Source: Hippasteria phrygiana (lineage: Eukaryota; Echinodermata; Asteroidea; Valvatida; Goniasteridae). From it: a DNA stretch of 64,000 nt. Location of the stretch: positions 1,302,001 through 1,366,000 of the forward strand of contig JAZGUH010000359.1 of assembly GCA_037893225.1 (NCBI GenBank), in the 5' to 3' direction. This document shows positions 6,801 to 59,500 of the stretch, piece by piece (positions within the stretch are counted from its first letter, which is position 1; each line of letters starts with the position of its first letter). A program made the translations under genes and the position numbers. Below the pieces are notes generated by a model. It had not been told where the DNA came from and ran no database searches. It worked only from the letters and a program-made list of their open reading frames with translations.

Positions 6801-9800
6801 GTATTGGGTTCAACATATCTATTAACCATAACCCTGCTAAATCAAACAAAATCCAACAATGGTAAAAAGCTGTAAATTTGTTGGATTTAGCAGTCAACTC
6901 AAACTACATGGTGTGCTGGATTTTGTCATATTTTATTAGCAGGGTGGTGGCAGACTTCTAATAAAATTTTTGTTGGATTTTGTTGAATTTGGAGGGCTCA
7001 TACAAACAAATACCTGTTGTATTTTGTTGGATTCAGCAGGGTACGTAACTACAAAATGAAAAGGCTGGGGTGTAGGTGGTACACTGCAGAATCCAACAAA
7101 ATTTACTATTGGATTTTGCTGTATTTAGCAGGCCTCTCATTTCAGTTTGGTTCAGAATTGTTGGATATAGCAGGGCCATATCAAAAACACTGAAGGAGGG
7201 CTAAAATAAATGGTCTGATGGTAAATTATAGTTTTACAATCAACCCTCTTGTGTTGAGGTCGACTTTTCTGCAATACAGACTTGAATAACATGAAACTAC
7301 TTCTTTTAAAACTGGAGAGAGGAATTTATGATTGCTCAATCTAAAATGAGCGATGCATGCCTAGCGTGTCATGTTTTTGAGCTAAATTGTAACAACGGGG
7401 GACCAGTGACGCAATACATGGACTACAGTCAATCGCAAGTGGGAGTTACTGTGCGTGCATGTGTGTGGTTAAGCAGTGACTAACTGTTGTTGTTCCAAAG
7501 GCTAGTACTGTGAGATACTCTTGAAGTTTTTTTCCCCTCATACTGCCTTCCTTTGAAACTCATTTAATTAAGCCAACCCTCCAGGGTATTTTGGCTAGAA
7601 CCCTGTCAGACACATCAGATTGCAAAATGTGTCACATTGACTTGTGTGCAGAGTGCAGCAAGGTCAAGCTGTCAGCACAGATGCACTGTGCCGCGTCTGG
7701 CAGGGTTTGGGTTAACCTACTTCCCTTCCACCTCATGATCTTTCACAATTCAAACTAAATGTGAATACATACATTTTATCCCTGTGATTTCTCGAGTGGC
7801 CTTTTGGCCTTGTGTTGGGCGATACCCATAAGAAACCTACTAGTCTGGTTTCCCGAACTTGTTCCAGTCTGCCTACAAAGTGCTCTGTATGACAAAGTCC
7901 TAACACGCTTAATAATGGTTCAACAGCAAAGTTTACTACACCAATGTATCAACACAGATATTGGTGTTTGATCAACTCACCTCGTGCAGAAAAGCTGTTG
8001 AGTGTTCAAGGAGCGGCTTGAGCTGAGGCAAGCAGAAGTGGGTGACCTCTGGCATGACTGGGTCAACTAGAATCTCAAAGGGTCTGAGTATAAGGAATAC
8101 AGCACAAAATGAGTAACGCTGTTATATTATAAGTGACTTAAAAAAAATAATAATAATAATAATCAAAGGATAGCATGGGCTTCATTCCAATCCCAGTCTT
8201 TCAACCAGTCTTCCAAGAATGAATTGGAATATATGAGTTGCCGGCTGCCCCTTGTAATTATAGCACTTTCTGTAGGTGATGGAATTTGTGTATGCAATTC
8301 AAGTGGATGAAAATCAGCCAGTTGACCCTAGCAAGCTCAATGGTCGAGTGATTAGAAGAATAACAGCACTAGCAAAGACGAAGTTGTGTGAGAAGTAATG
8401 TTACTGCTTTGGGTGAACTTTCGTTAGCCGTTTGGTTGTGTGTTTTTTTTTGTTTTTTTTTCCAGTAACTGTCATTTACGTTTTTCAATCTCATTTGTCT
8501 TTTTAAATCTGGAATCCCAAGAAATGATCTGACACATTAATTCAAACGTTAACGTGAATGAAACCATTCAAAAATATATAACTCGGGAATCAGGTTGGCC
8601 GAGTGGTACTTTCCTCGCCTTCCACCACTGTGACCCGGGTTTGAAACCAACCGGGGCAGACATGTGGATTGGGTTTTCAGTCCTTACCTGATTCCGTTTG
8701 TTTTCCCAGAATATCATTCTGAGGTTTTCCTCCCACTTCTAAAACTGAACATCATCTTGGTCGTCTTCCTACAGGTTTGGTCGGGTTTTCGAGCTACAGT
8801 GCGATATGCGCTTTTGAGGAATCCTTGGTTTCAGTGCCAGAAAGAATTAAACTAAATAAACAAGCACTTGATGTTTTTTTCGCAGGCTCTCAGAAAGCAT
8901 CGAGCACGCAGTGCTTCTAAAACTGCATTGCAAGGGTGAGATTGGCCAAAAATAAAAAATGCACGAAATCCAGAAAAAATCCACAAGGACCCCAGATCAA
9001 CATTGTATTTGCCTTAAGGCACCCCCTTCAAATGTCAATTGTTATTGGTCTATATCCACTTTTACAGGTAAAAACACCTTTGGGACACACCTTAGGAATT
9101 CCAGATTGCAAAAAAGATTCTTTAAAAATTCTGAAATCCCGACAAAAAATCCTAAAATCAGAAACAAATCATGAAATCTCACCCCTGGCATTGGGAAAAA
9201 GAAAATTCAATTATATAAAACTTACCCTACTGCCAGTGCGATATTGGGAGCCGACGTGGGTAGATTCAGAGCATAGTGGAACGTTTTCTTCCTCATGTCC
9301 GGCGTGTAGACCGTCTCCATCAGGTCACCTGAGGAGATCGCGGTCATGGCCTTGTCCACGGTGAACTCCAACTTCCACGTACAGGGCTCAGAGTATGTGT
9401 CGATGCAAGGGAACCAGGCACGGGAGGAAGTCTCATGGCTGTAGGTGAACATGTGTGCTGCTCTCTGTGGTGGGGGAGGGAGAATTACCAGCTAAAAATT
9501 CATACAAATATTTAACCTCTTCTGCCCGGCTGTTAATGACGGAGGCTCGTATGATAAGAACCGACTGTGTAGCCAAGGTGTACATGCAAACAATACGCAC
9601 CACACTGAATAGGGTGGTCCTATCTATCGCACCTGGAGCCCCTCTTTCGGGTGAGTGAAAGCTTTGCTTGAAAAAGCTCCATCTATTCATTACACTCCCA
9701 TTCAAGAACAATATAGTTGAAACATGAATGGATTGAGTGAGCACAGAAATGTGCGTACGTGACTAAAGTTCCTGTACATGAACACCTATTAGTATTATGC

Positions 9801-12800: not shown

Positions 12801-13510
12801 TATGCACTAGCCACGGTATGCTTGGCCTACAGAGCTTTCTGACAGTACGTATGGCCAGAAGCAGTTAGGCAGAAAGATGGTACTTTGATTACCCCCACCA
12901 AAATCGGTCAGGAACAGCAAAATCTTGTAAATTTTGCGTTCAGAAAAAATTTGCAAAAACAGTTAGTACAATTGTTAATTTTGTGACTTTCGTCAGAAAA
13001 TTTCCATGCAATATTGAAAGAAAGTTTGTGTTTTCTGTGTTAAATGTTCTTGGCACTGTGTGTGGTCACTCAAACCAGAGGTCAGCATGGTCAGTGATTT
13101 CTGCTTGAGTGCTTCAATATATGCTGACATAAATTTTGAAATAACAGGTTGTGCCAAATGTTTAGACTCAAGGAGCGTTGCCTATTTTCCAAGATTTTGC
13201 TGTTCCTGACCGATTTTTGTGGGGTATTGAAGTAAACTCTTTCCCTGGGGTCTCATTCCTTCCTCCATGGGTCTCCCAGGACATTTATATATGGGACCGT
13301 ATATAGGTGGAGTACTATCAATGCCAGGCATGGGGGGTACACAAATATTTAACACCGTTCATCGTTACGTTTCTTCAACCATAGTTCAACCAGTCCATGC
13401 TTCACAACAACATTGATACTTTTACAAGAAACGAATGAAGGAAATACTTATAATCTGAAAGGACGAGGCGTCTCAAAAGCCTTTTCCCCTTTTTTGAAGA
13501 TTTTTGACAT
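757..13510 (-). CDS. TAF2: TAF2, transcription initiation factor TFIID subunit 2 (5' part, 14 exons, runs off left edge)
   Basis: TAF2 is a nuclear TFIID subunit that helps the complex recognise core-promoter initiator DNA. Coding exons, in transcript order, are 13452-13510, 12117-12171, 11803-11875, 10997-11087, 10231-10349, 9896-9993, 9226-9464, 7981-8083, 6612-6730, 5422-5635, 4651-4914, 2971-3063, 2103-2279 and 757-866. Phases agree at every junction and give 1,814 nt (604 codons plus 2 nt). Recognisable segments include [14 protein letters not shown] (exon 7), [13 protein letters not shown] (exon 8), [14 protein letters not shown] (exon 9), STNLLHS (exon 10) and NRKRN (exon 13). The M1 zinc motif position reads QSLAEQFFG (residues 341-349), so HEXXH is lost, as known for TAF2. 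The C-terminal half lies outside the window. The start is the methionine that best matches the family N-terminus; the frame is open upstream to 13672. Confidence 0.95.
1775..1950 (+). repeat. Repeat family B copy 1 (TTAA MITE-like)
   Basis: It starts TTAACCCCTTGAGTACGG and contains CAGCCAAGCGAAACGGACAC, ATGGATTGAAAATGCAGAAA and GGCCTGGTGGCAATTTT. It matches copies at 16757-16954, 20984-21155, 32488-32645 (inverted) and 50717-50933. It lies in TAF2 intron 13. Confidence 0.8.
2103..2279 (-). CDS. TAF2: TAF2 exon 13 (residues 510-568)
   Basis: It encodes [40 protein letters not shown] and ends LKYV. The VSGKD…QWV and SFxFNRKRN motifs fit TAF2. The acceptor is TCGGCAG and the donor GTGAGT. Confidence 0.95.
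2971..3063 (-). CDS. TAF2: TAF2 exon 12 (residues 479-509)
   Basis: Thirty-one whole codons encode [20 protein letters not shown] then [20 protein letters not shown] is conserved in TAF2. The acceptor is CCCTAG and the donor GTGAGT. Confidence 0.94.
3395..3625 (+). repeat. Dispersed repeat (GGAGTTGTGGGAC family) copy 1
   Basis: ATTCGATGAGATATCATTTT, CGGAGTTGTGGGAC and AAAAGTAGGAATACTT are shared with 25815-25955 in the same orientation. It lies in TAF2 intron 11. Confidence 0.6.
3738..4580 (+). mobile_element. TTAACCC...GGGTTAA element with TGCAACA words, split by a hAT-like MITE
   Basis: It begins TTAACCCTTACC and ends TTAGGGTTAA (4571-4580). Inside are repeated words in both orientations: CCCTGCCAAATGCAACAGAA, CCTGGCAAATGCAATGTTGC and TTGCATTCAGCAGGG. 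The 3' terminus is interrupted by the insertion at 3998-4569. Confidence 0.65.
3998..4569 (+). mobile_element. hAT-like MITE family D copy 1
   Basis: Its ends are TAGGGGTGTGTATTTACGGG and CCGATGCACACTTCTA, flanked by near-identical 8-bp repeats GTTCGGGT / GTTAGGGT. Inside it carries ACCGGGTACCCG words. It is closely similar to the inverted copy at 48663-49272. Two shadow frames (97 and 68 aa) lie in it; their conservation between copies reflects repeat identity, not coding. Confidence 0.75.
4651..4914 (-). CDS. TAF2: TAF2 exon 11 (residues 391-478)
   Basis: It begins [20 protein letters not shown], continues with an acidic/Pro-rich insert ([13 protein letters not shown]), then [20 protein letters not shown] and [15 protein letters not shown]. 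The block PHTxSW…[10 protein letters not shown] is conserved in TAF2. The acceptor is CTTTAG and the donor GTAAGA. Confidence 0.94.
5422..5635 (-). CDS. TAF2: TAF2 exon 10 (residues 319-390), degenerate catalytic segment
   Basis: It encodes [49 protein letters not shown] and [12 protein letters not shown]. In active M1 enzymes this region reads HELAHQWFG…WLNEGF; here the two His, the first Glu and the distal Glu are Q341, E345, S342 and K. The acceptor is CCAACAG and the donor is the weak GTTAAA. Confidence 0.94.
6061..6404 (+). repeat. Repeat family A copy 2, with shorter poly-G tract
   Basis: It shares TTGAAAAAGACCAACCGGCT, CAACTATATTGTTATTGAA and the end ACACAAGGGGTTAA with copy 1. The G run is about 12 here, and a CCCACCCCCACCCCC stretch is expanded near the end. 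It lies in TAF2 intron 9. Confidence 0.8.
6612..6730 (-). CDS. TAF2: TAF2 exon 9 (residues 280-318)
   Basis: It encodes [20 protein letters not shown] then [19 protein letters not shown]. The motif [13 protein letters not shown] is a TAF2 hallmark in the region where active M1 enzymes carry GxMEN. The acceptor is TTGGCAG and the donor GTATGC. Confidence 0.95.
6822..7175 (+). mobile_element. TTAA-type element with TTGGATTTTGTTGG words
   Basis: It starts TTAACCATAACCCTGCTAA. The word TGGATTTTGTTGGATTNAGC occurs in both orientations at least five times (for example AAATCCAACAATGG, ATTTTGTTGGATTCAGCAGG, TTGCTGTATTTAGCAGG). Related copies are at 17208-17393 and 44533-44675. It lies in TAF2 intron 8. 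Confidence 0.6.
7567..7715 (+). mobile_element. TTAA-type element with CAGGGTATTTTGGC word, copy 1
   Basis: It runs from AACCCTCCAGGGTATTTTGG to CTGGCAGGGTTTGGGTTAA with internal TGACTTGTGTGCAGAGTGCA. It is nearly identical to 12333-12482. Confidence 0.75.
7981..8083 (-). CDS. TAF2: TAF2 exon 8 (residues 245-279)
   Basis: It encodes [20 protein letters not shown] then [14 protein letters not shown], with GGA-Gly completed across the junction. The acceptor is ACTCAG and the donor GTGAGT. Confidence 0.94.
8589..8866 (+). mobile_element. tRNA-derived SINE in TAF2 intron 7
   Basis: The head resembles a tRNA with an A-box-like TTGGCCGAGTGGT and a B-box-like GGGTTTGAAAC. It is followed by a body with GGGTTTTCAGTCC and GGTTTTCCTCCCAC and an A-rich end (AAACTAAATAAACAA). 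The tRNA part is too degenerate to be a functional gene. It lies antisense to TAF2. Confidence 0.65.
8934..9184 (+). mobile_element. MITE family H copy 1
   Basis: The inverted ends are GGGTGAGATTGGCC and AATCTCACCC-like. The interior contains TATATCCACTTTTACAGG and CAAAAAATCCTAAAATCAG. An inverted copy is at 18484-18776 and a fragment near 42295-42415. It lies in TAF2 intron 7. Confidence 0.7.
9226..9464 (-). CDS. TAF2: TAF2 exon 7 (residues 166-244), M1-like N-terminal domain
   Basis: It begins [20 protein letters not shown] and includes [40 protein letters not shown] and ends NIALAVG. The WFPC(I/V)D motif belongs to the M1 aminopeptidase superfamily fold. The acceptor is CCACAG and the donor GTAAGT. 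Confidence 0.95.
9512..9758 (-). repeat. Repeat family A copy 3 (inverted, no long G run)
   Basis: It starts TTAACCTCTTCTGCCCGGCT and includes AATAGGGTGGTCCTATC, GCTTGAAAAAGCTCC and CAAGAACAATATAGTTGAAA. The poly-G tract of other copies is reduced to a few bases at this position. It lies in TAF2 intron 6. Confidence 0.8.
9896..9993 (-). CDS. TAF2: TAF2 exon 6 (residues 133-165)
   Basis: It encodes [19 protein letters not shown] then [14 protein letters not shown]; the GGxHFVVP…EGSMAE block is characteristic of TAF2. The acceptor is TTCTACAG and the donor GTGAGA. Confidence 0.94.
10231..10349 (-). CDS. TAF2: TAF2 exon 5 (residues 93-132)
   Basis: It encodes [20 protein letters not shown] then [19 protein letters not shown]. 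The family signature is RNLNYF…AVDPD..NGEL. The acceptor is GTCAG and the donor GTAGGT; phases agree with both neighbours. Confidence 0.93.
10613..10729 (-). pseudogene. Partial duplicate of the TAF2 intron 3 end and first half of exon 4
   Basis: This segment matches 11047-11164 in the same orientation with few differences. It carries a branch-like ACCTTAAC, an AC acceptor, and coding for [13 protein letters not shown], then diverges, so the second half of the exon (including its donor) is absent. It sits in intron 4, between exons 4 and 5. It is an exon relic rather than a needed exon, because exon 4 joins exon 5 in phase without it. Confidence 0.8.
10851..10945 (-). mobile_element. tRNA-like SINE fragment in TAF2 intron 4
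   Basis: The minus strand reads GGCAAGATAGCTCAGTTGG then GCAGGTTCAAATCCCACTCC and TGCCAG, with tRNA-like A and B boxes. The anticodon arm is shortened and the T stem is mismatched. The downstream tail TTTTCTTTGTTCACTTGAAA recurs next to a second fragment at 54011-54095. Confidence 0.55.
10997..11087 (-). CDS. TAF2: TAF2 exon 4 (residues 63-92)
   Basis: It starts GA after an AC acceptor, completing Arg63, then [20 protein letters not shown] and LAICQNETK. The donor is GTAAGT. An acceptor at the upstream TTTTAG (11120-11122) would put TAA in the required frame, so the AC acceptor is preferred. The first half of this exon is duplicated at 10613-10729. Confidence 0.92.
11088..11802 (-). other. 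TAF2: TAF2 intron 3: U12-type AT-AC intron
   Basis: The donor is ATATCCTTTT, a perfect minor-spliceosome 5' site. The branch-point-like ACCTTTAAC (about 11100-11108) lies about 14 nt before a terminal AC, inside the normal U12 spacing. Splicing here gives SKQC-R-IYRI, exactly the family sequence. Confidence 0.88.
11803..11875 (-). CDS. TAF2: TAF2 exon 3 (residues 39-62)
   Basis: It encodes [18 protein letters not shown] then LNSKQC, plus one base. LNSKQC is strongly conserved in TAF2. The acceptor is CTCTAG. The donor is ATATCCTTTT, the U12 AT-AC consensus. Confidence 0.92.
12117..12171 (-). CDS. TAF2: TAF2 exon 2 (residues 20-38)
   Basis: One base completes Leu20, then [18 protein letters not shown] follows, a clear TAF2 segment (family: THQVVCINNINFQRKSVV). 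The donor is GTAAGT. The upstream boundary is an AC rather than an AG. Confidence 0.88.
12333..12482 (+). mobile_element. TTAA-type element with CAGGGTATTTTGGC word, copy 2
   Basis: It has clean ends TTAACCCTAACCCTCCAGGG and GGCAGGGTTAGGGTTAA and is about 150 bp. It is nearly identical to 7567-7715, in TAF2 intron 1. The ends define the TTAACCCTAACC signature used for the whole group. Confidence 0.75.
12889..13227. mobile_element. MITE with about 37-bp terminal inverted repeats in TAF2 intron 1
   Basis: The left end TACCCCCACCAAAATCGGTC (continuing AGGAACAGCAAAATCTTG) is mirrored at the right by CAAGATTTTGCTGTTCCTGA (continuing CCGATTTTTGTGGGGTA). No coding frame is seen. Confidence 0.8.
13452..13510 (-). 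CDS. TAF2: TAF2 exon 1 (residues 1-19 plus 2 nt)
   Basis: It encodes [19 protein letters not shown] plus the first two bases of a Leu codon, matching the TAF2 N-terminus (…ESPRPYKL in vertebrates). The exon ends directly before ATAAGTATTT. No GT donor restores the frame, because extension to the next GT adds an in-frame TAA. See the intron 1 entry. Confidence 0.85.
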
Positions 13511-15403: not shown

Positions 15404-15448
15404 GCCTACCCATGGAGGAAGGAATATAGCCTTCCTCCATGGCCTACC
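15404..15448. mobile_element. Hairpin insertion 1: 31-bp perfect hairpin with 7-bp direct repeats
   Basis: GCCTACC (15404-15410) and GCCTACC (15442-15448) flank a hairpin at 15411-15441. The arms are CATGGAGGAAGG and CCTTCCTCCATG with a 7-nt loop. Three similar hairpins are at 48519, 58510 and 58609. Function is unknown. Confidence 0.8.
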
Positions 15449-32697: not shown

Positions 32698-35600
32698 TCA
32701 GGAGAAGCTGGCTGCCCGGGCTTTCCTCATCTGACACAGCCACTTGATGACCCGAGCGTTCTTGGTGATGATAGACTGAGACGTGTCCGGCAGCTTCTTT
32801 ACCCGATGCAGGCCCTCCTCGCTCACTTTGCTGCCGTGGGAAAGATTGTCCGAGTTCTCGGTACTGAAGGAGCGGCCGTCGTCCTCCCTAATGTGCTTGT
32901 ATTCGTGCATCTCGTGAAAGACCTCGTCCTCGTCGCTGAGCTGCAATGGGGAGAACTGATTCTTGAAGCTCTCATTCAGCCCCATTTGGTTAAAGAAGCG
33001 CTCCATGTCTGAGTGGGCACTGGAAACAGAGCACAGGGGGCTCATACCCAGGTCCGACTTGGAGCGGCGACGTGGAAAATCTCGTCGGGTGGGGGAAGTC
33101 AGTGACTCCGGAGGAGATATACATGTAGTGTCTTCAGGTTTCACTGCTCGGTTGTTGATGCTCTCTTTGAGGTTCAAATTCAGGAGGGGTTTGCGGGCAA
33201 TTGGCTGAAAATTTGTGTTGTACTTCTTTGGCACGGACTTCTGTTGTGTGGCAAAGACATGATCCATCCTCGCTTCATTTTTAGATTCACAGGTGCTTAT
33301 ATTGCTGCCCTTATCTCTGCTTGACTTGCGAGTTGTCTCCGGTTTGGGATCCTCAGGAGGTCTGATTTTCTGTCCTCTCTTGAGGGTGTTCAGCTCATCT
33401 TCGGGATTTATTATCCGAGACAGCAAGTGCTGAAGGGATTTATCCTCCTTCTTGGTTTGGACATGCCTCCGAGGCTTTTTCGCTCGCATAACTTTACTCT
33501 GTTGAAGATCCACATCACTGTCTGTCTCCGAGTCATTCCCATGACTTCTGTTAGGCCTTTGGGGTGCAGACCACTTGGAATCCACTTCTTCTCGGCTGGA
33601 TTTAGTCGCCTCAGCTCTTTTGAGCTGATCGGTCCTATCAGATGATACAGTTTCTCCCAGCGGGGCATCTTTAAGCAGTTCAGAGAGGCTCACTTTCTTA
33701 TCTCGCGACTGTTCTGCATTGGAGGTTTCCCTAACTGTATGACCCAGATATGGTTTATCGTATCTTGACAAAGATATGTCTGAGTCCTGACTGACCTTTC
33801 TCCTCTTGTCCAATTCACCTCTGCTCTGTTCCTCGACAGAATGTTCCAGGGTTACCTTGCTTCTGCCATAGTGTTTAATGTACATCCTTCCAGGTCCGGC
33901 ATCAGCTTCCATGTCCCTACTGACAGATGCCTTTCTTTCATTTCGGTCTCTTTCATCACAAAGTTCTGTTATATGTAGTTCCACATCCTTCCATGGGACA
34001 TCAGCAGGCTTGTTCAGATTCTGGACTGCAGGATAGACATTTGAATTTACTTCATCACTGACGTCTGCCCGATACGCCCAATGGGTTTCAGCAATATTTG
34101 TTTTGCCACACGCTGGCTCTGATGGCATTTTGGTAGCCGAGGATCCTACTGTAATGCGATTACCGTTGCTATCATTTTGTAGTTGCTTAGGACGGAGATT
34201 TTCATTAATTCTGTTGGTATCATTCTTTGACCGCTTGACAGGTATTTCGCTCCCTTCTGGAGTGCTCATGATTCCACTGAGGAAACTTTGTACTCTTGAT
34301 TTTGCACTGTCGTGGATGTCTTCTGGTGAGAAGATTTTTCTGGGTGTGTTCTGATGATGTACGTGCCTCCATGGAGTCTGCAGCTCTACATCATCTTTGT
34401 GAGATTTGGAGGCATCGGGGGATAAGGCTCTACCACTATGAGATAGGTTTCCTTGAGTATCTCTTTTGCTATCATCATTCCTGTTTTTGTTATGGCTGAA
34501 ATTAACAGGTGCCCAAGACTTCTTTTGAAAGTCCCCAATGGAGTCGGGAGTGGTCTTGGCAGGCTCGAAGGACACAAGCGGTGCAGAGATTTTTGGTATG
34601 GACACCGGAATTAGAGGGTCTCCCTGTAACTGGTCATCATGACTGTGTTGTCTCAATTGAACAGGGTCTGCTTCTTTAGTTGAGATTAGAACTGCATTGC
34701 TGTGATCCAGATCTGACTTGGCTCTACTGTGTATGACATCCTGATGGGAATCCTGCTGGATGGAATCTTCTGGTTGCAGCCTTGTCTGGAAGCCATTGCC
34801 GCTGACATAATGCTTTGTCGGGAATAAGCTGCCACTCACCTGCACTAGGACCCTGTCACCAGCATGATGTACGGAATGTTCGGGCACAGACCTTTGGTCC
34901 TTAATTCTTTCTTCAGGATCCCCCCAATGCTCAGGTGACTTCCCACAAATGTTGTGCTCCTTGGTTCGCCTCAGTCTCCTTACATCCGCAGACGTTACAG
35001 TCATGTCTTGGTTCATCATTCCCACCTTACTGCTGCTCTCCCCATGATTTGTTAGAGACATAATCTGAGAGGTGCCATCCCTTCTACTTTTATCAGAGGT
35101 TTTTCTATCCCCGTCTGGATCTGGTCTGGTGTTGAAAAGGGCTTGAGGTCTGGCAATTTGGCCTTTCTGAAAGGCAGTATCTGCAAGCTGATCAGAACTA
35201 CATGTACCATCTTTGGAAGTGTGCAATCTTGGCTGGACAAGACTGGAGGATATTTTACGAGACTGGTCTTTCACGGAATTACTCCTTTCCTTACTATCCG
35301 CTGCCTGGTTCGGCGGTTTGAGGACAATCTTGCTGATCTTCCGCTCTTGGCTGATCTCCTTTACAGCATCAGTAGCATGCATAGCTTTAAAGCGCTCTAT
35401 TTGTCTTCTGGTCTGCTCATCAAGAATATCTGAAGAAGCTGTTGGAACTTTCATCTCCATCTCACTGCCTGGACTTTGATCATCTTCACTGGAAGTTCCT
35501 AGACTTTTTTCAGGGTTCACTGCTTCGACATCGCCTCTCACAGACAATTCCGTTAGCTCAGAAAAAGTACTCCCCGACTTAATGGCATCTGCATCTGCTG

Positions 35601-36369
35601 GCTCCTGGAACTCAAACTTGTGGAAGTCTTTCTGAGGGAAAGTAAAGCTTGTGTTTTTCAATGTGGAAGGAAAACTGGACGAGCTGTCTGGCTTCTGCAA
35701 TTCGGTCGGCGACACTTTATCTGGACTGGTTTCGCTTTTGCTCTTAGGGGACCCAATGTTTAGAAACTGTTCTTTCAGCCTTTGGACACGGCTACCAGCA
35801 CTTATGTTCTCTTTTGCACTCAGAGGGGAATTAGAATTGGAAGAGTCCGTACTTACAACAGCTGTATGGAGAGAGACGAGGCCATCATTGACGGCTGTAT
35901 TTTGCTTTGTACTATGCGCAAGTGAAGCCGCCACAATCTCAAGTGTCCGATCCCTACTGCCTTTCCGCATACCAGTTGGTCCAGATTGTGAGGGTTTGTC
36001 GGGGACAGGAGGTGGCTGCCGGGGACGGGATTTTTTAGTCGGTTGGTGTCCCTTGTCGCCATCGTAAACATAAGGCACTGCTCTGAACACGTAGCCCTGT
36101 GAGTCATTGTGGGTGGGTGTTACATGTATCTGACGAGCTCTGTATCTGTCGGTTTGATTCCTTTGGTTCTCCTCTCCCCAATTGTCATCCAGCTCGTCCT
36201 GACTTTCTCTTCGGATAAATTTAGAACGGCTTTCTGTTAGTCTCTCTGCAGCCGATTTCTTCCCCAGCTGTTGATCTTTATCAGGTGCTTCTCTTAAAAA
36301 GCCAGGCCCCGTGTTGAAGGTGCGAAGAGGGAGGTTTATGACAGTGGATGCTTTAGAGGTTACAGCCAT
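32698..36369 (-). CDS. FAM110 family protein, 1,223 aa, single coding exon
   Basis: FAM110 proteins are small vertebrate proteins reported at centrosomes and spindle poles. The N-terminus has TGPGFLRE (residues 20-27) and KKSAAERLTESRSKFIRRE (37-55), matching the family N-terminal block. The C-terminus has RRRSKSDL (1100-1107), DMERFFNQMGL (1121-1131) and KNARVIKWL (1203-1211), matching the C-terminal block. Between them lie about 1,000 residues of low-complexity, Ser/Asp/Lys-rich, probably disordered sequence with a proline patch (RPRQPPPVPDKP). Vertebrate members are about 300-370 aa, so the centre is expanded. The start chosen is MAVTSK: the frame is open 34 codons further, but a splice acceptor lies 11 nt before this ATG. 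I cannot assign it to FAM110A, B, C or D. Confidence 0.9.
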   Translation of the reverse strand: MAVTSKASTVINLPLRTFNTGPGFLREAPDKDQQLGKKSAAERLTESRSKFIRRESQDELDDNWGEENQRNQTDRYRARQIHVTPTHNDSQGYVFRAVPYVYDGDKGHQPTKKSRPRQPPPVPDKPSQSGPTGMRKGSRDRTLEIVAASLAHSTKQNTAVNDGLVSLHTAVVSTDSSNSNSPLSAKENISAGSRVQRLKEQFLNIGSPKSKSETSPDKVSPTELQKPDSSSSFPSTLKNTSFTFPQKDFHKFEFQEPADADAIKSGSTFSELTELSVRGDVEAVNPEKSLGTSSEDDQSPGSEMEMKVPTASSDILDEQTRRQIERFKAMHATDAVKEISQERKISKIVLKPPNQAADSKERSNSVKDQSRKISSSLVQPRLHTSKDGTCSSDQLADTAFQKGQIARPQALFNTRPDPDGDRKTSDKSRRDGTSQIMSLTNHGESSSKVGMMNQDMTVTSADVRRLRRTKEHNICGKSPEHWGDPEERIKDQRSVPEHSVHHAGDRVLVQVSGSLFPTKHYVSGNGFQTRLQPEDSIQQDSHQDVIHSRAKSDLDHSNAVLISTKEADPVQLRQHSHDDQLQGDPLIPVSIPKISAPLVSFEPAKTTPDSIGDFQKKSWAPVNFSHNKNRNDDSKRDTQGNLSHSGRALSPDASKSHKDDVELQTPWRHVHHQNTPRKIFSPEDIHDSAKSRVQSFLSGIMSTPEGSEIPVKRSKNDTNRINENLRPKQLQNDSNGNRITVGSSATKMPSEPACGKTNIAETHWAYRADVSDEVNSNVYPAVQNLNKPADVPWKDVELHITELCDERDRNERKASVSRDMEADAGPGRMYIKHYGRSKVTLEHSVEEQSRGELDKRRKVSQDSDISLSRYDKPYLGHTVRETSNAEQSRDKKVSLSELLKDAPLGETVSSDRTDQLKRAEATKSSREEVDSKWSAPQRPNRSHGNDSETDSDVDLQQSKVMRAKKPRRHVQTKKEDKSLQHLLSRIINPEDELNTLKRGQKIRPPEDPKPETTRKSSRDKGSNISTCESKNEARMDHVFATQQKSVPKKYNTNFQPIARKPLLNLNLKESINNRAVKPEDTTCISPPESLTSPTRRDFPRRRSKSDLGMSPLCSVSSAHSDMERFFNQMGLNESFKNQFSPLQLSDEDEVFHEMHEYKHIREDDGRSFSTENSDNLSHGSKVSEEGLHRVKKLPDTSQSIITKNARVIKWLCQMRKARAASFS

Positions 36370-36398
36370 CTTGAATTGGTCTGGAATAAAAAAATAAA
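36370..36398 (-). other. 3' splice site in the FAM110 5' leader
   Basis: The coding strand reads TTTATTTTTTTATTCCAG then ACCAATTCAAG directly before ATG, a strong pyrimidine tract and CAG acceptor. It implies at least one upstream untranslated exon, which I cannot place. Confidence 0.65.
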
Positions 36399-36513
36399 TA
36401 AATAAACATATAGAACAGCACCACATGGACCTTTTGGTGTAAAGTACATAAGATGCATGTACAGTACACATGTATACTGTACATAGGAGTATAATAGGAG
36501 CTTTGGAACTGCT

Positions 36514-48511: not shown

Positions 48512-48558
48512 CTCGGACCATGGAGGAAGAAAGGTGTTTTCTTCCTCCATGCTCGGAC
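48512..48558. mobile_element. Hairpin insertion 2: 33-bp perfect hairpin with 7-bp direct repeats
   Basis: CTCGGAC (48512-48518 and 48552-48558) flanks a hairpin at 48519-48551 with arms CATGGAGGAAGAAA and TTTCTTCCTCCATG and loop GGTGT. The sister arm of the palindrome at about 50127-50150 reads AAGTTACTTGGACTAGGCTA without the insertion, which gives the empty site. Confidence 0.88.
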
Positions 48559-48662
48559 TAGCTTCAGATTAGCCCTACAAATAGGGCTGTAAATGGTTCC
48601 TTTTTTAACTTCTGGCTTTTTACTGTCACCATTGAAGCCAGAAGTTAAAAAAGGAACCATTT

Positions 48663-49307: not shown

Positions 49308-50150
49308 GCTTTAGTCCGAGTAACTTGGACCCTTTATCGCCTTTTTTAACATTTGGACATGATCTGGCGATAGTAGGGTCCAAGGCAACGTTAGACGATG
49401 CTCTATTCATTAATTCAATACGTCAAAAATCCAATCAAAAAAATCATAATTCAACCTTACAACGGCCACCAAAATACTAGATACCCCACCATCTTAACAA
49501 GTGGAGTTTCATGATCAGAATGTACCAAGGTTTACTTAACATCCAAATAAAAAGTGAAATTTTACCGTTTAATTCCCAGAGACCCCCGCAGAACATGTCT
49601 TTTCGCTTTCTTGGAGTTCAAATAGTGCTCCTCGACCTTGATGCGCAGCGACCGCATGCACCGCGCGACAACCTGTTTATGCCGGCGACTGTTTCGTGAA
49701 GAATTCCCTCCCCCATGACGCGCGTGCAACCTCGAATCAATATACTACATGTATCTACACACGAACACGTACCGCGACCGGTATACCACTCACGAAACAG
49801 TCGCCTGCATAAACAGGTTGTCGCGCGGTGCATGCGGTCGCTGCGCATCAGGGTGACGTCATGCAAGGTCGAGGAGTCACTATTCGAACTCCAAGAAAGC
49901 GAAAAGACATGTTCTGCGGGTGTCTCTGGGAATTAAACGGTAAAATTTCACTTGTTAAGATGGTGGGGTATCTAGTATTTTGGTGGCCGTTGTAAGGTTG
50001 AATTGTGATTTTTTTGATTGGATTTTTGACGTATTGAATTAATGAATAGAGCATCGTCTAACGTTGCCTTGGACCCTACTATCGCCAGATCATGTCCAAA
50101 TGTTAAAAAAGGCGATAAAGGGTCCAAGTTACTTGGACTAGGCTAGCTTC
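49308..50150. repeat. Foldback palindrome 3 (about 840 bp, arms about 370 bp)
   Basis: The left arm GAGTAACTTGGACCCTTTAT… is mirrored by …ATAAAGGGTCCAAGTTACTT. Both arms contain GCGATAGTAGGGTCCAAGG, CTAGATACCCCACCATCTTA and GAACATGTCTTTTCGCTTTC or complements. The centre holds CGCGCGACAACCTGTTTATG and its complement. A third copy of the outer arm lies at 47880-48010. Confidence 0.85.
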
Positions 50151-53099: not shown

Positions 53100-55840
53100 A
53101 CATCTCGAAAGTCTCCAATTAGGGCCTGCAATCTATTTGATTTGACATATAGATTCACCATGGAGAAATCGCGAGGTTGTACCTGGATATGTCAGCTGCC
53201 CCTATTAGCTATAATTAGCTTGTCAACATTTAAACTTAGGCCTTTACGTACATATACAAGCATGGCCTTAAGCTTATTGGCAGTGAAGTGGTGCAAACCA
53301 TAAATTCAAAGGGTGAACATGCAAATGTACCCCGGGGGTGACCACCGTCTGTCTCTGAATACCATCTTTTCCTCATTTCCTTTTTCGATAAATTATGACA
53401 AATGTCATGGTCCATCAACATTTTGTTCCTCGGGGAGATGGACCTTATAGCCAAGCCATAGTTATATGGCAATCAAGCCTCATGACACGGATATGCGTCA
53501 CTGTCACCAGAAAGTGACCACATAAAGCATAGCATAATGCCGTAGCCCCCCCCCCCCCCCCCCTCCCCACCCCGTCGCCGTGGCGTCATGAGGACCCGTA
53601 GAAGAGGGGTGCGTTACCCAGCTCCATATTAAAAACATTGAAACCCAGTGTTAAACTTTTTCGATTTATTTGTTGGGTTCTAACAGTTCGAATTAGAACC
53701 CATGAAGACGAATTTCTCCCTCATCGTGAATATGCGTTCAAAGGTTATGTGCAGCTGCCATCTTCGAGGTTTATTGTCATTCAAATTTTTGTATCAATAA
53801 AGCAGAAAATGTTTACCCATTCATGTTCAAGGGTAACAAAGACATTAATCTCTAATTAGCATCGCTATTTGCTCTGCAAATAGTGTTTCGCCCTTCTCCC
53901 TCCTGCTTTTCAAAATATGTTGCCAGCTACAGGCAAAGAAAGGTTCCATAACTTTAAAATTGTTCTTCGTCAAACAAACCACAAGGAAAACTGACTCGGT
54001 AAATTCGCATACATTTTCAAAGTGAACAAAGTAAACTGGGTCGCGGGTTTGAATCCCACTCCTGCCAGTTTTCTTTGTTCCCTTTGAAAATTTAAAATTG
54101 TTCTGCTAATAAACTTTAGAGTCTCCCATCCAACAAAGAAAGTTGCGATTTTGTTTCCACTACATATCGACAGAGCAAGGTTGACAAAACAAAACGAATT
54201 ACATCCAGAATAATGGCGCGTTCGACTTTTTAAAAATCAGTTTGATGAAAAGGTTCCTAGCCTTAAAAAACACTATTATTAGTACAAACGATCCTATAGC
54301 TAGCCCCGAAAGCTACCCTTCAGCCTTTTATAGGCCAGTCAATGCGGGGAGCTTTTGTTTGTTCTGTAAAGATGCGGCCTTTATCTATTTTCCTAAGCTA
54401 ATATCATCCGTTCTATGTCACTTTTAACACCATGAAATAATTGATGGCCACGTCAATGACCAGACAGTACAATAGACTGCGTAAGAATTAAGACAGAAAT
54501 AACTGTCTCAATGCAAGCATTCTGGCGCATATTTGTGTTTGTTTGTTGGGGTGTTGGGGTGTTTGTTTGGTTGTTTCTCAGTAATTTTAATTGTTCAAGT
54601 TATTTACAACGGGCTTTGGTTGTAACCATGGAGGTAGTAATGAACGTTGGTTCCATGTATTCCACCATGGTTTCCCCCACTGCACAAAACCCAGATCCAG
54701 AATTTACGGAGGAAAACACTGAGATTTGAGCCTGCAGGAAAACAGTCAAACTTGCATCGTCTAAGTTCTATATATAGTCAAATGTGACTACTTTTTAAAA
54801 GTGTATCTGCAGCGGTTTCGTCAGCTCTATATATCTTTGCTTTATGTAGGCCTACTCGGTTTCTGTATAGGCCTAGTATCCTGGGAAATTGAAAATGTGT
54901 GCTGATCTGTGTGTATTCTGGTGCGTATATATACTGGTGCATGTAAAAACCAATGACCCATACAATGCACATGACCATGGGGAAATTATTGGGGGGGGGG
55001 GGGGGGGGGCACTGCCAAGCCGTCCCCTACCCAAAAATATTGGGGGGGGGGGGGGGACATCCCCCCCCCCGAATCGCCACCCATGGTTACTGCATTTCTA
55101 TGGAACATAATGATAGCGGTTTTCTCCCGTTTTTGTTCGGCGCTTCATGATTTCAGGTTTTTTCAGTTCCCTTGATAAATTTCGAGGTCGGCTCATGATG
55201 TAGGCAGACAGACTGGAATATAACATTATTAGGCCTTTTACAAAAACCCACAAACAACTTGAAAAGATAGGATTTGTTTCTCAATCAGTATCGAGTAGGC
55301 CTACATAGTGGGTAAATCAAGTCAAATCAGCGTGTTCGAACGATATTGAATGTAGACAGCATCATTGCAACATCGGAAAACAACATTATATCCTCCTTGA
55401 TAATAGCATGTTCCTTGCTCTATGATGATAGTATGGCATGTATGCTCTTTCGTTGACCGTCGTAGTGGCTCAAATTAGTGATGCGAGCTAATAGTACTTA
55501 TATTTTATTTGCATACAATAAAGCTTGTCGCTATTTATTTATATCCATTTACAATTGCCAAACTCGCGTGTGGAGGAGCGCCGGGATGGCTGCCAGTGCC
55601 AAATACAACCATGTTTATATTCATTTCTTTCGATTACAATATGCAGCATATGATTAGTAGGCCTACACTTGACGTTGGCAGCCTAAATATAAAGTTGTAG
55701 ACAGCGGATCCACGAACTTTGCAAATTGTCCTCGTGTATACAATGGACATTGTCCTTGTCGGTGGAGCATAAGCACCATGGTGCAGAGCTATAAGGCTAT
55801 TTGAAATATTATTTTAGAGGTAAAAATAGCACCGCAAGTC
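53100..55840. other. Intergenic DNA between the repeat cluster and the SLC16-like gene
   Basis: No gene is recognised. It holds poly-C at 53547-53563, the SINE fragment at 54011-54095, and two G runs around 54990-55054 separated by a CCCCTACCCAAAAATATTGG spacer. Confidence 0.45.
54011..54095 (+). mobile_element. tRNA-like SINE tail fragment
   Basis: GCGGGTTTGAATCCCACTCC then TGCCAGTTTTCTTTGTTC matches the tail of the 10851-10945 copy. An inverted match TTTTCAAAGTGAACAAAG lies just upstream, making a small foldback. Confidence 0.55.
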
Positions 55841-56539: not shown

Positions 56540-59500
56540 GTGAGTCTTTGAACCTGTTTTTTTTCCTGTTTTTCTGTCAAGTTTCAGACTGCGCTTTATA
56601 TTTCTTGGAGTTATAGGCCCCATCTAATTATTTGTTGCTGACAAGTTGCGAATAGCCCCACCAGCAATGCGTACGGTATCCAGGCAACCGTTATTCAAAT
56701 AATAAAGTTGCATTTTATTTAATGTAATCTTTAAAGAGGGTAATCAGAAAAAAATACTGTTCAAAATTAATGAGCCCTTTGTAGTACAATTCCACACACT
56801 GACCATGCATGCTGGTGGGAGTAGATAACATTTATAGAATCAGAAGATAATTATTTGGACAGTTTATTTGTATTCGCAATAAGGAGCCCAATTTTTGAAG
56901 AAACAAAACCTACGACAAAAGCATGTTATGTTTCCTACCTCCATGACGAGCACGACCAGACCAAAAACAAAAATGGGCTATCGATTAAACATAAACGATC
57001 AACATAAATCTAACCACAAGCCATTTTGTCACAACATGTTATATTTTTAAAACTTCGAATGAATAGTTTTGTGACAATATACTTGTGGCTATACTTTTAA
57101 TTGCGCAGTAATTTGAAATAGAGTATAATGTCATGCAAATTGTTCTGTTGTTCAGCCGAGAAGTCTGCATAATTACCTGCCTGTGTTTGTGCATGATACG
57201 ACTGTATGCTTGTCCAGTTCAATGGTAAAGCCATTGAGCAAGGACGCACAATATTATGCAATACCCGCTTTATTGTCTGAATATTTTTGCGTGGATGTCA
57301 TTTATGGCGGCAGGTGAATAATTCGAGTGAACCGTTATAAAATTACTTGAGACGGATCGATACTTTCAGTTTCGCAATATGGAGGAGACCTTCTGACGTA
57401 GGAGTATTAGTAATTTTATTTAGACATACAGACTGTATACGTAATTTTAAACATAGCGGTAAACCGTTATAATTATAGCTCATGGTGTGAGCATCTACCT
57501 CCTTCCTCCATGATAGAACATACAGAACGTGCATAAGCAGCATGCCTGCGGTTTTGCGGTTTCGTCTCGTGACTGATCAAGAAGCGGCCACCGCCGAGCA
57601 TTGTCTGCAAATCACGGTCCCCTGTCTGTCCTTGGTCAGACCATGGAGCTATAAAAAGGACCATAATCAGGTCATACCCCATAGGTCTATGGCCCAGCAA
57701 TTAGGACTGTGGGGCAAGCAAAGATAATTCCCTCTGAGGTCTGTGACCCCTGGTAGTAATTATACGGTATCATGTGCTGACCAATTTTTTTCAAGAAGGA
57801 ATCATTCTACAACTTTTTTAAAAGCATGAACCAGTTTACATCATGTACAAAGCTGTTGTGCCACTTGATCATTCTCTGTGTAAATGGGATCCCATGTTTT
57901 AATGTTTTCCAACATTATATTACTGGTATTTTTTTAATTAAGTTTCCGGGGGAAAATGTACCGTACACGAAAGATACGATTTTCTACAGTACCCCGGTAT
58001 AGCTGTTGTTAAACAGTTTAAGTAAAGTAAACAGTTTATCCTAAGTAATCATGTAGCGTTTTATTGACAGAGAAAAATGTTTATATTCTTCGTTTATTCA
58101 CCTATCAATTGTTTCCCACACCCTACCCCCAGGCCGCCCGGCGTCGGGATTGGTACATCTGTTTCATGGCCGAGGGCGGGGGCTGTGGTCCTTCTTTAAC
58201 TGGGAATGAAATTTGTCCTATACTTTTGTGCAGGAGAGTTGTGCCCGAGGATGGGGTTTTGGTCACTTCCGAAACGTCAATCCCCACGTCGGGTGGGGTA
58301 GCGCGAGGACGGGGTAGGGAAACAACTCATAGGTGCATTAACTTGGCTGTAAGTCGGGCTGGACATTTTATCAAGGAGTCAAATCACTCAATTCATCAGC
58401 TTTGCAATAACACGATGTTTATTCATGAAAATGAATTAAACTGCTGTTAACTGCTATTATAACTGACTGGATTGACCTGAAATATACAAATCAACAAAAT
58501 TAGCTGGCCCATGGAAGAATAATAACTTATTCTTCCATGGCTGGCCTAAAGGCAAAATTTGATTTTGCCTTTAAGAAAGAGTTCCTTCAGTTCGAAACTT
58601 AGGCCAACCATGGAGGCTTTTCCTACCTCCATGGGCCAACTAATTTTGCTGATGTTTATTTATGATATACTAACAATAAACAGGACATAATTATATTTCT
58701 GTTTGTCAACATACGAAACCATGCACAAGGCAGGTCAAAATACAAGCCCAAAATAGCTCATTCAGCCAATTGCCTACTTCACGATGGCATTCACAGGGTA
58801 CGTGATGCATGCATGCACAATTATGATCCAGCATTTTAATTGGTCCACGTTGTGATGAATTATTTCACAAGTGATCTCATCGCCAGTCTGGAGTCAGGAT
58901 ACTGATTTGAATACAAAGGAATTGTGAAAGCCCAGCCTCGAGTCTAGGGAGTCTCTGGCATTGTCCCTTTCTAAGCTGTTTACCAGGGTCCTCGTAGTCG
59001 TATACGGTAGTGGTATTAAAATCGTATCAAAATCACATCCCATGCGTTCCCAAAAAGGTAGTACAGGTATACAACATTTGCTTTTTCTGTAATTTTTTAG
59101 AAATACTTGGATTTGGGGGTTATTATTGTATAGCGTGCTAGAAAATACTGTAACACTGACCTGTTTAAAGTGCATAGGTGTGTATGCATAGATGCTGGGA
59201 AAACGAGACAACAAATATGTTCTAGTATAGTCTGGTTCAATGATCATATGAACAATTCATAGAGTCAGAGAATTATCAGGTCGGGGAACCATTTCCAACG
59301 ATTGTCGGCCGACAATAGTTGGAAAACGATACAAATTTCTACTTTTCTTGAAAACGACAGCACACCATGTACAAGGGCTGCGTTCCACTCACGCGAACGT
59401 TCGCAAACGTTCGCCAATTTGTTTTGCACATCCAATGGAAGATCGATTGTTCGCGTAGTTGGCAAACGTTGGCAACGTTCGCGTTAGTGGAACGCAGCCG

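Follow-up and report, generated by a model that had tools for sequence, protein, structure and literature searches.

Short hairpins between 7-bp direct repeats in the starfish Hippasteria phrygiana: probable excision scars of P-superfamily DNA transposons

The stretch of the Hippasteria phrygiana genome analysed here (64,000 nt, hereafter the window) contains four hairpins of 25-33 bp that begin with CATGGA, end with TCCATG and are each placed between exact 7-bp repeats (Table 1), which raises the question of whether such structures are mobile in themselves, arise during repair, or are left behind by something larger. An initial annotation had described the same arrangement of 7-mer, hairpin and 7-mer at all four loci, and every one of them reads in this way. 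In 200 dinucleotide shuffles of the window, CATGG...CCATG pairs occurred at a mean of 2.3 per shuffle, and none was flanked by identical 7-mers. The perfect pairing of the arms that had also been claimed is found in their outer parts (8-14 bp) but does not extend throughout the inner part, as the inner 9 nt of the hairpin at 58609 are unpaired. The term scar is used below in anticipation of the reading that we consider probable.

Table 1. Features of the hairpin loci and of two related sites, in window coordinates.
Feature	Position	Strand	Details	Basis
Left target-site copy	15404..15410	.	GCCTACC	read in sequence
Putative excision scar	15411..15441	.	arms 12 bp	read in sequence
Right target-site copy	15442..15448	.	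GCCTACC	read in sequence
Left target-site copy	48512..48518	.	CTCGGAC	read in sequence
Putative excision scar (hairpin)	48519..48551	.	arms 14 bp; left remnant CATGGAGGAAGAAA + 1-nt filler + right remnant, the reverse complement of CATGGAGGAAGAAAACAC	read in sequence; make-up split by eye
Right target-site copy	48552..48558	.	CTCGGAC	read in sequence
Left target-site copy	58503..58509	.	GCTGGCC	read in sequence
Putative excision scar	58510..58539	.	arms 13 bp; different TIR type (CATGGAAGAATAAGTTA)	
Right target-site copy	58540..58546	.	GCTGGCC	read in sequence
Left target-site copy	58602..58608	.	GGCCAAC	read in sequence
Putative excision scar	58609..58633	.	arms 8 bp; left remnant 8 nt (CATGGAGG), right remnant at most 17 nt (reverse complement of CATGGAGGTAGGAAAAG)	
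Right target-site copy	58634..58640	.	GGCCAAC	read in sequence
Possible one-sided scar	13249..13276	-	GGAGACC + 14-nt TIR remnant CATGGAGGAAGGAA + TGAGACC	
Empty copy of the 48.5-kb target	49312..49324	-	GTTACTCGGACTA uninterrupted	alignment and sequence read

Empty targets and surroundings in the window

Empty sites, which the initial annotation had pointed to at 48.5 kb, are present for two of the four loci. In addition to the copy within the window, the 48.5-kb target GTTACTCGGACTA is uninterrupted at 6 places in one fetched sequence (L005), and the 58.5-kb target AATTAGCTGGCCT is uninterrupted in two others (L018 and L024); no empty copy of the 15.4-kb target was found among the fetched sequences, and none was seen for the 58.6-kb target. 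The same L005 sequence contains, at position 8537, a different, one-ended 10-bp insert between copies of CTCGGAC, the repeat of the 48.5-kb target, and this target has therefore been struck more than once. The 7-mers behave as target-site duplications (TSDs), and the hairpins are linked with insertion. At the possible one-sided scar the right-hand TGAGACC has one mismatch to the left 7-mer, and a 6/7 match in the range scanned could be due to chance.

The two hairpins at 58.5 and 58.6 kb occupy corresponding targets in the two arms of a single palindromic repeat (58410-58700), one arm of which is shortened and relatives of which are found in L015, L018 and L024. A long, near-perfect palindrome with arms of about 29 bp (48595-48662) adjoins the 48.5-kb scar. 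TIR fragments of the CATGGAGG type lie at 54627 and 59641 (+) and at 56945 and 57512 (-), with no clear 7-bp repeat; these are perhaps one-sided or decayed scars. The window also encodes an ORF of 1,257 aa (32698-36471, -) with a FAM110 C-terminus, residues 980-1257 of which have their best relatives in Patiria miniata (68%), Acanthaster planci (60%) and Asterias amurensis (58%).

Genome-wide abundance, target motif and anatomy of the joints

The assembly searched (944 Mb in 1,285 contigs) contains 7,640 matches to CATGGA-N10-30-TCCATG compared with 481 for the reversed control pattern, so that the genome-wide excess on which the initial annotation had made its proposal depend is present. Patterns with purine-anchored flanks and a spacer of N8-38 gave 1,938+1,964 sites as against 148+162 in the control. 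Repeat statistics were drawn from the first 61 listed of these flank-anchored sites, all located on contigs C1-C8 and not a random sample; the arms measure at least 8 bp in 42 of them and are shorter in the other 19. The former group, two members of which represent one duplicated locus, comprises 25 hairpins with exact 7-mers, 7 with one mismatch and 10 with a poorer match; hence 32 of 42 have at most one mismatch, compared with 1.5% (0.5% exact) when left and right 7-mers of different sites were paired by permutation. Only 2 of the 19 sites with shorter arms are flanked by exact 7-mers, and the remaining 17 have at least two mismatches. Taken at face value, 34 of the 61 sites would correspond to some four thousand hairpin scars in the genome, a figure that is extrapolated from the first contigs and leaves one-sided scars out. 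The centres of the hairpins are seldom common to loci: 38 different hairpins are found among the 42 listed, and within this set the same hairpin recurs at loci with different TSDs only in the case of the plain palindromes GGATATCC (3) and GGATCC (2).

The 27 fetched sites with exact repeats, for which an exact 7-mer was required and which include one paralogous pair (L013, L022), give the target profile TTA-GTYNRAC-TAA, which is palindromic about the 7-mer with symmetry reaching about 3 bases outside it. The core GTYNRAC is likewise obtained from the 27 exact sites among the 61 listed, a set that overlaps with the fetched one. A transposase dimer leaves symmetry of this kind, with its centre on the duplicated bases. 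All four 7-mers in the window end in C, as had been noted, but this is not general; since C occupies position 7 in only 33 of 54 symmetrised counts (27 exact listed sites), the terminal C reflects a target preference.

The halves of the joints are pieces of a few TIR types, which were grouped by eye: CATGGAGGAAGGAACAC (F1), CATGGAGGAAGAAAACAC (F2), CATGGAGGTAGGAAAAC (F3), CATGGAGAAATAAAACAC and others. Exact F1 17-mer ends number 875 genome-wide (424+451) as opposed to 0 in the control. Inspection by eye of 100 listed ends from these 875 revealed 6 opposite pairs of scar size, two being duplicates, and a 147-bp F1 pair on contig C45, together with its duplicate, that represents adjacent scars. 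We fetched 20 F1-end loci, namely 5 non-duplicate scar-size pairs and 15 other ends from the start of the list, and found an exact 7-bp repeat at 11, a repeat with one mismatch at 4 (including L068, which at 49 bp is doubtful) and none at 5. Two target copies with at most one mismatch therefore surround the joint at 15 of the 20 fetched ends, one doubtful, as they do in the majority of the listed hairpins. Joint length ranges from 19 to 43 bp with the exception of L068 and of a nested multiple scar (L062).

The joints consist of length-limited TIR tails whose trimming varies between loci and which are occasionally accompanied by filler; short fillers occur in joints with two long remnants (L061, L062, L064). 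Many ends run on beyond 17 nt as TAA or AAAC(T) and remnants reach 20-22 nt, so our first prediction of a 17-nt limit, modelled on fly-like tails, did not hold. One-sided scars were found at L005:8537, L023:5585, L036:384, L063, L067 and L073; at L023:5585, for example, the 17-mer plus ATG lies between copies of TTTGGAA, while at L036:384 the 17-mer runs directly into flank lacking bases that are still present in L013, L014 and L022. The latter was considered as the start of an intact element and rejected, because the downstream flank aligns with the paralogues. L036 bears three successive scars, the second and third of which are missing at the same place in L013, L014 and L022; the first was inherited, as one identical joint is common to all four paralogues. 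Another identical joint is common to L019 and L032, and a joint at C7:2691903 combines an F1 end (left) with an F3-like end (right).

More complex arrangements were also encountered. At L010:6838 (-) a joint between copies of CATGTAC contains two TIR starts (CATGGAGGCATGGAGGTATTAAATG) that point the same way, looking as if filler had been copied from a TIR. A 25-bp hairpin without CATGG ends (CCATATCCCACTATGTGGGATATGG) lies between 6-bp TAATTA repeats at L022:2160-2184 and is perhaps the scar of another transposon. A 30-bp difference between L049 and L051, tried as a scar, looks like a microhomology deletion instead.

P elements of this genome and the search for a parent

P transposases are present in this genome: profile searches returned 55 matches to PF12017 and 86 to PF21787, and two ORF pieces contain all four P-transposase domains. 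No THAP domain was matched in these two pieces, and their only relative in the PDB is the fly P transposase (6p5a). An intact P element is located at C854:184272-191608 (L058, L054, L042, L055), with ends CACGGACGTATATAA and CACCGACGTATATAA, the inverted ends being CACSGACGTATATAA, the TIR CACSGACG, an 8-bp TSD (TCAGATCC) and a long P-transposase ORF; its right boundary was set from two copies and its left one from the inverted repeat. A second copy on C1079 (L056, L043, L057) is about 98-99% identical over the common stretch and is without a 1.2-kb insertion. The scar predicted for this element, CACSGACGTATA-N0-28-TATACGTCSGTG, occurs at 7 sites of 24-42 bp compared with 0 in the control. The match on C345 resembles the element itself in combining a CACGG end with a CACCG end; that on C117 has two ends of one kind, forms a perfect palindrome and may be something else. 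With TSDs lying outside the predicted pattern and two of the 7 matches read, these sites may be taken to favour excision scars, as support and not as proof. Two inserts that have inverted ends, about 0.55 kb (L046:2350-2900) and 0.27 kb (L053:1897-2169) in size, sit inside copies of a multi-copy P-like family (L046-L053).

No intact element with CATGG ends was confirmed. Inward-facing F1 pairs 0.2-20 kb apart were absent, by eye, from 100 listed of the 875 ends, and only one element-size inward pair exists among all 61 F3 ends (CATGGAGGTAGGAAAAC), namely C178:3198502-3202857 (4,356 bp). This pair has no match in the PF12017 and PF21787 lists and is either a parent, intact but non-autonomous or else decayed, or a pair of scars unrelated to each other. 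No pairing CATGG ends were found around the transposase loci L042 and L059, and none of the listed F1 ends or the F3 ends was seen by eye to overlap a PF12017 or PF21787 match. A preponderance of scars over elements is to be expected where an element leaves a scar at every jump and continues elsewhere, but the CATGG family may also be extinct in this genome.

Comparison with known systems and alternative origins

P-type excision footprints are already known from laboratory experiments in the fly. The P transposase is described as cutting with an unusually long stagger of 17 nt (PMC7776569), and the repair joints tabulated for Drosophila P{w-a} have the form TSD-CATGATGAAATAACATA|TATGTTATTTCATCATG-TSD with trimming, microhomology, blunt joins and filler (PMC2895639). 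We re-scored the isolates in Table 1 of that report, the rows of which sum to 66 (68 in the legend), and compared the 44 that bear tails; 37 of these would qualify as hairpins by the criterion of arms of 8 bp or more, the lengths being 7-44. The 22 left out comprise 20 long-microhomology isolates, most without a hairpin, the CA(TGA) row and the "none (T)" row. The starfish count likely misses long-microhomology joints too, because such joints keep little tail and escape a hairpin scan. As in the starfish, the P{w-a} joints reported there consist of two target copies and trimmed TIR tails starting with CATG, are formed through microhomology, blunt joining or filler, and are mostly hairpins where tails are retained. 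The fly joints, however, have 8-bp TSDs and 17-nt tails and were made in the laboratory (PMC2895639), whereas the starfish joints have 7-bp repeats and remnants of up to 20-22 nt, number thousands in a wild genome and have no parent found. On this comparison, the starfish hairpins agree in build, range and variety with fly P excision joints.

We consider it probable that the micro-hairpins are scars marking the excision of P-superfamily cut-and-paste DNA transposons and not mobile elements themselves. An element with TIRs starting with CATGGAGG, or a near variant, would insert at TTA-GTYNRAC-TAA and duplicate 7 bp; a transposase would later excise it by a widely staggered cut, so that each flank retained about 20 nt of TIR, and these tails would be trimmed by end joining, sometimes supplemented with filler, and fused between the two target copies. 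The joint would nearly always be a short hairpin because the two tails are inverted copies of one sequence, and its centre would vary from locus to locus because each represents a separate repair event. For the same reason of inverted TIRs at the two broken ends, perfect arms need no copying, and the suggestion that arms had been copied from each other becomes unnecessary; the snap-back repair product that the initial annotation had entertained is apt in so far as the joints resemble end-joining products, but not in implying copying between arms. We infer the exact stagger, the repair pathway and the germ line as the general site of repair.

In one alternative, the scars derive from a DNA transposon outside the P superfamily with a long stagger and 7-bp TSDs. 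No CATGG TIR is tied to a P transposase, and the P element proven in this genome has CAC ends and an 8-bp TSD, unlike the CATG and 7 bp of the hairpins. Nevertheless, the fly P terminus is given as CATG (PMC2895639), and Galileo, a member of the P superfamily, is described as having a 7-bp TSD of the GTNNNAC type (consensus GTANTAC) inside a 15-bp palindromic motif (PMC4168063), similar to the GT...AC in a palindromic target motif observed here, although its TIRs are very long and internally repetitive. Hairpins that fit the ends of a proven P family are also present in the same genome. A non-P origin is in our view unlikely, and the CATGG parents were presumably P elements, judging from similarities in terminus, TSD, target and type of scar. 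Zebrafish Pdre and THAP9 offer a parallel outside insects, being P-like and having a transposase of the THAP9 type, although Pdre is reported to have 8-bp TSDs, 13-bp TIRs and internally deleted copies instead of scars (PMC10983969, PMC7776569).

It is quite improbable that the hairpins of 19-43 bp are micro-MITEs, mobilised by a transposase and diverging afterwards, although TSDs, fixed termini and empty sites would accord with this. Homogeneous copies with a common internal sequence are lacking among the 42 listed hairpins, with their 38 different forms, and one-sided pieces carry a single TIR end. Mobility of Drosophila P is stated to need 138 and 216 bp of its ends, and the ends of Anopheles P-MITEs, at less than 100 bp, are likewise far above 20 bp (PMC1562414). 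These P-derived MITEs resemble the hairpins in being short, non-coding P-element products, but are described as retaining both ends, internal sequence and 8-bp TSDs (PMC1562414), whereas the starfish hairpins are shorter and each is different. The micro-hairpin as a mobile unit, one of the two suggestions of the initial annotation, is not supported, given the differing centres, the one-sided scars and the match with P excision joints.

Programmed removal, with elements kept in the germ line and cut from somatic DNA so that the assembly records the somatic state, would account for many ends without a confirmed intact element; it is highly unlikely, as the identical joints in L013/L014/L022/L036 and in L019/L032 imply that those joints were inherited, and the others are imprecise and varied, unlike programmed elimination. 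Template-switch or snap-back insertion without any transposon, which would yield paired arms and varied centres, is scarcely credible in view of the recurrent 17-mer, the fixed 7-bp repeat and the symmetric target, all signatures of a transposase.

Returning to excision scars of P-superfamily elements, it is possible, and is put forward tentatively, that they record a ghost transposon. This would be a P-like group, duplicating 7 bp on insertion and cutting with a stagger near 20 nt, that made thousands of jumps within a starfish lineage and left several thousand scars, with intact copies absent or nearly so. We found neither a survey of P-type excision scars across a whole genome nor one in starfish in the literature searched, which included few subscription journals and is weak evidence in this respect. 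A short palindrome between direct repeats need not signify a mobile element, and caution is appropriate in reading such structures. One wild genome seems to hold thousands of scars, each recording an independent and heritable repair of a break whose chemistry is defined. If this is true, statistics on the use of microhomology and on filler synthesis would be possible without experiment, and the scars by themselves would allow past transposon jumps to be counted, including those of elements that have since been lost. Should the ghost transposon prove real, its scars would constitute a genome-wide archive of natural germ-line break repair.
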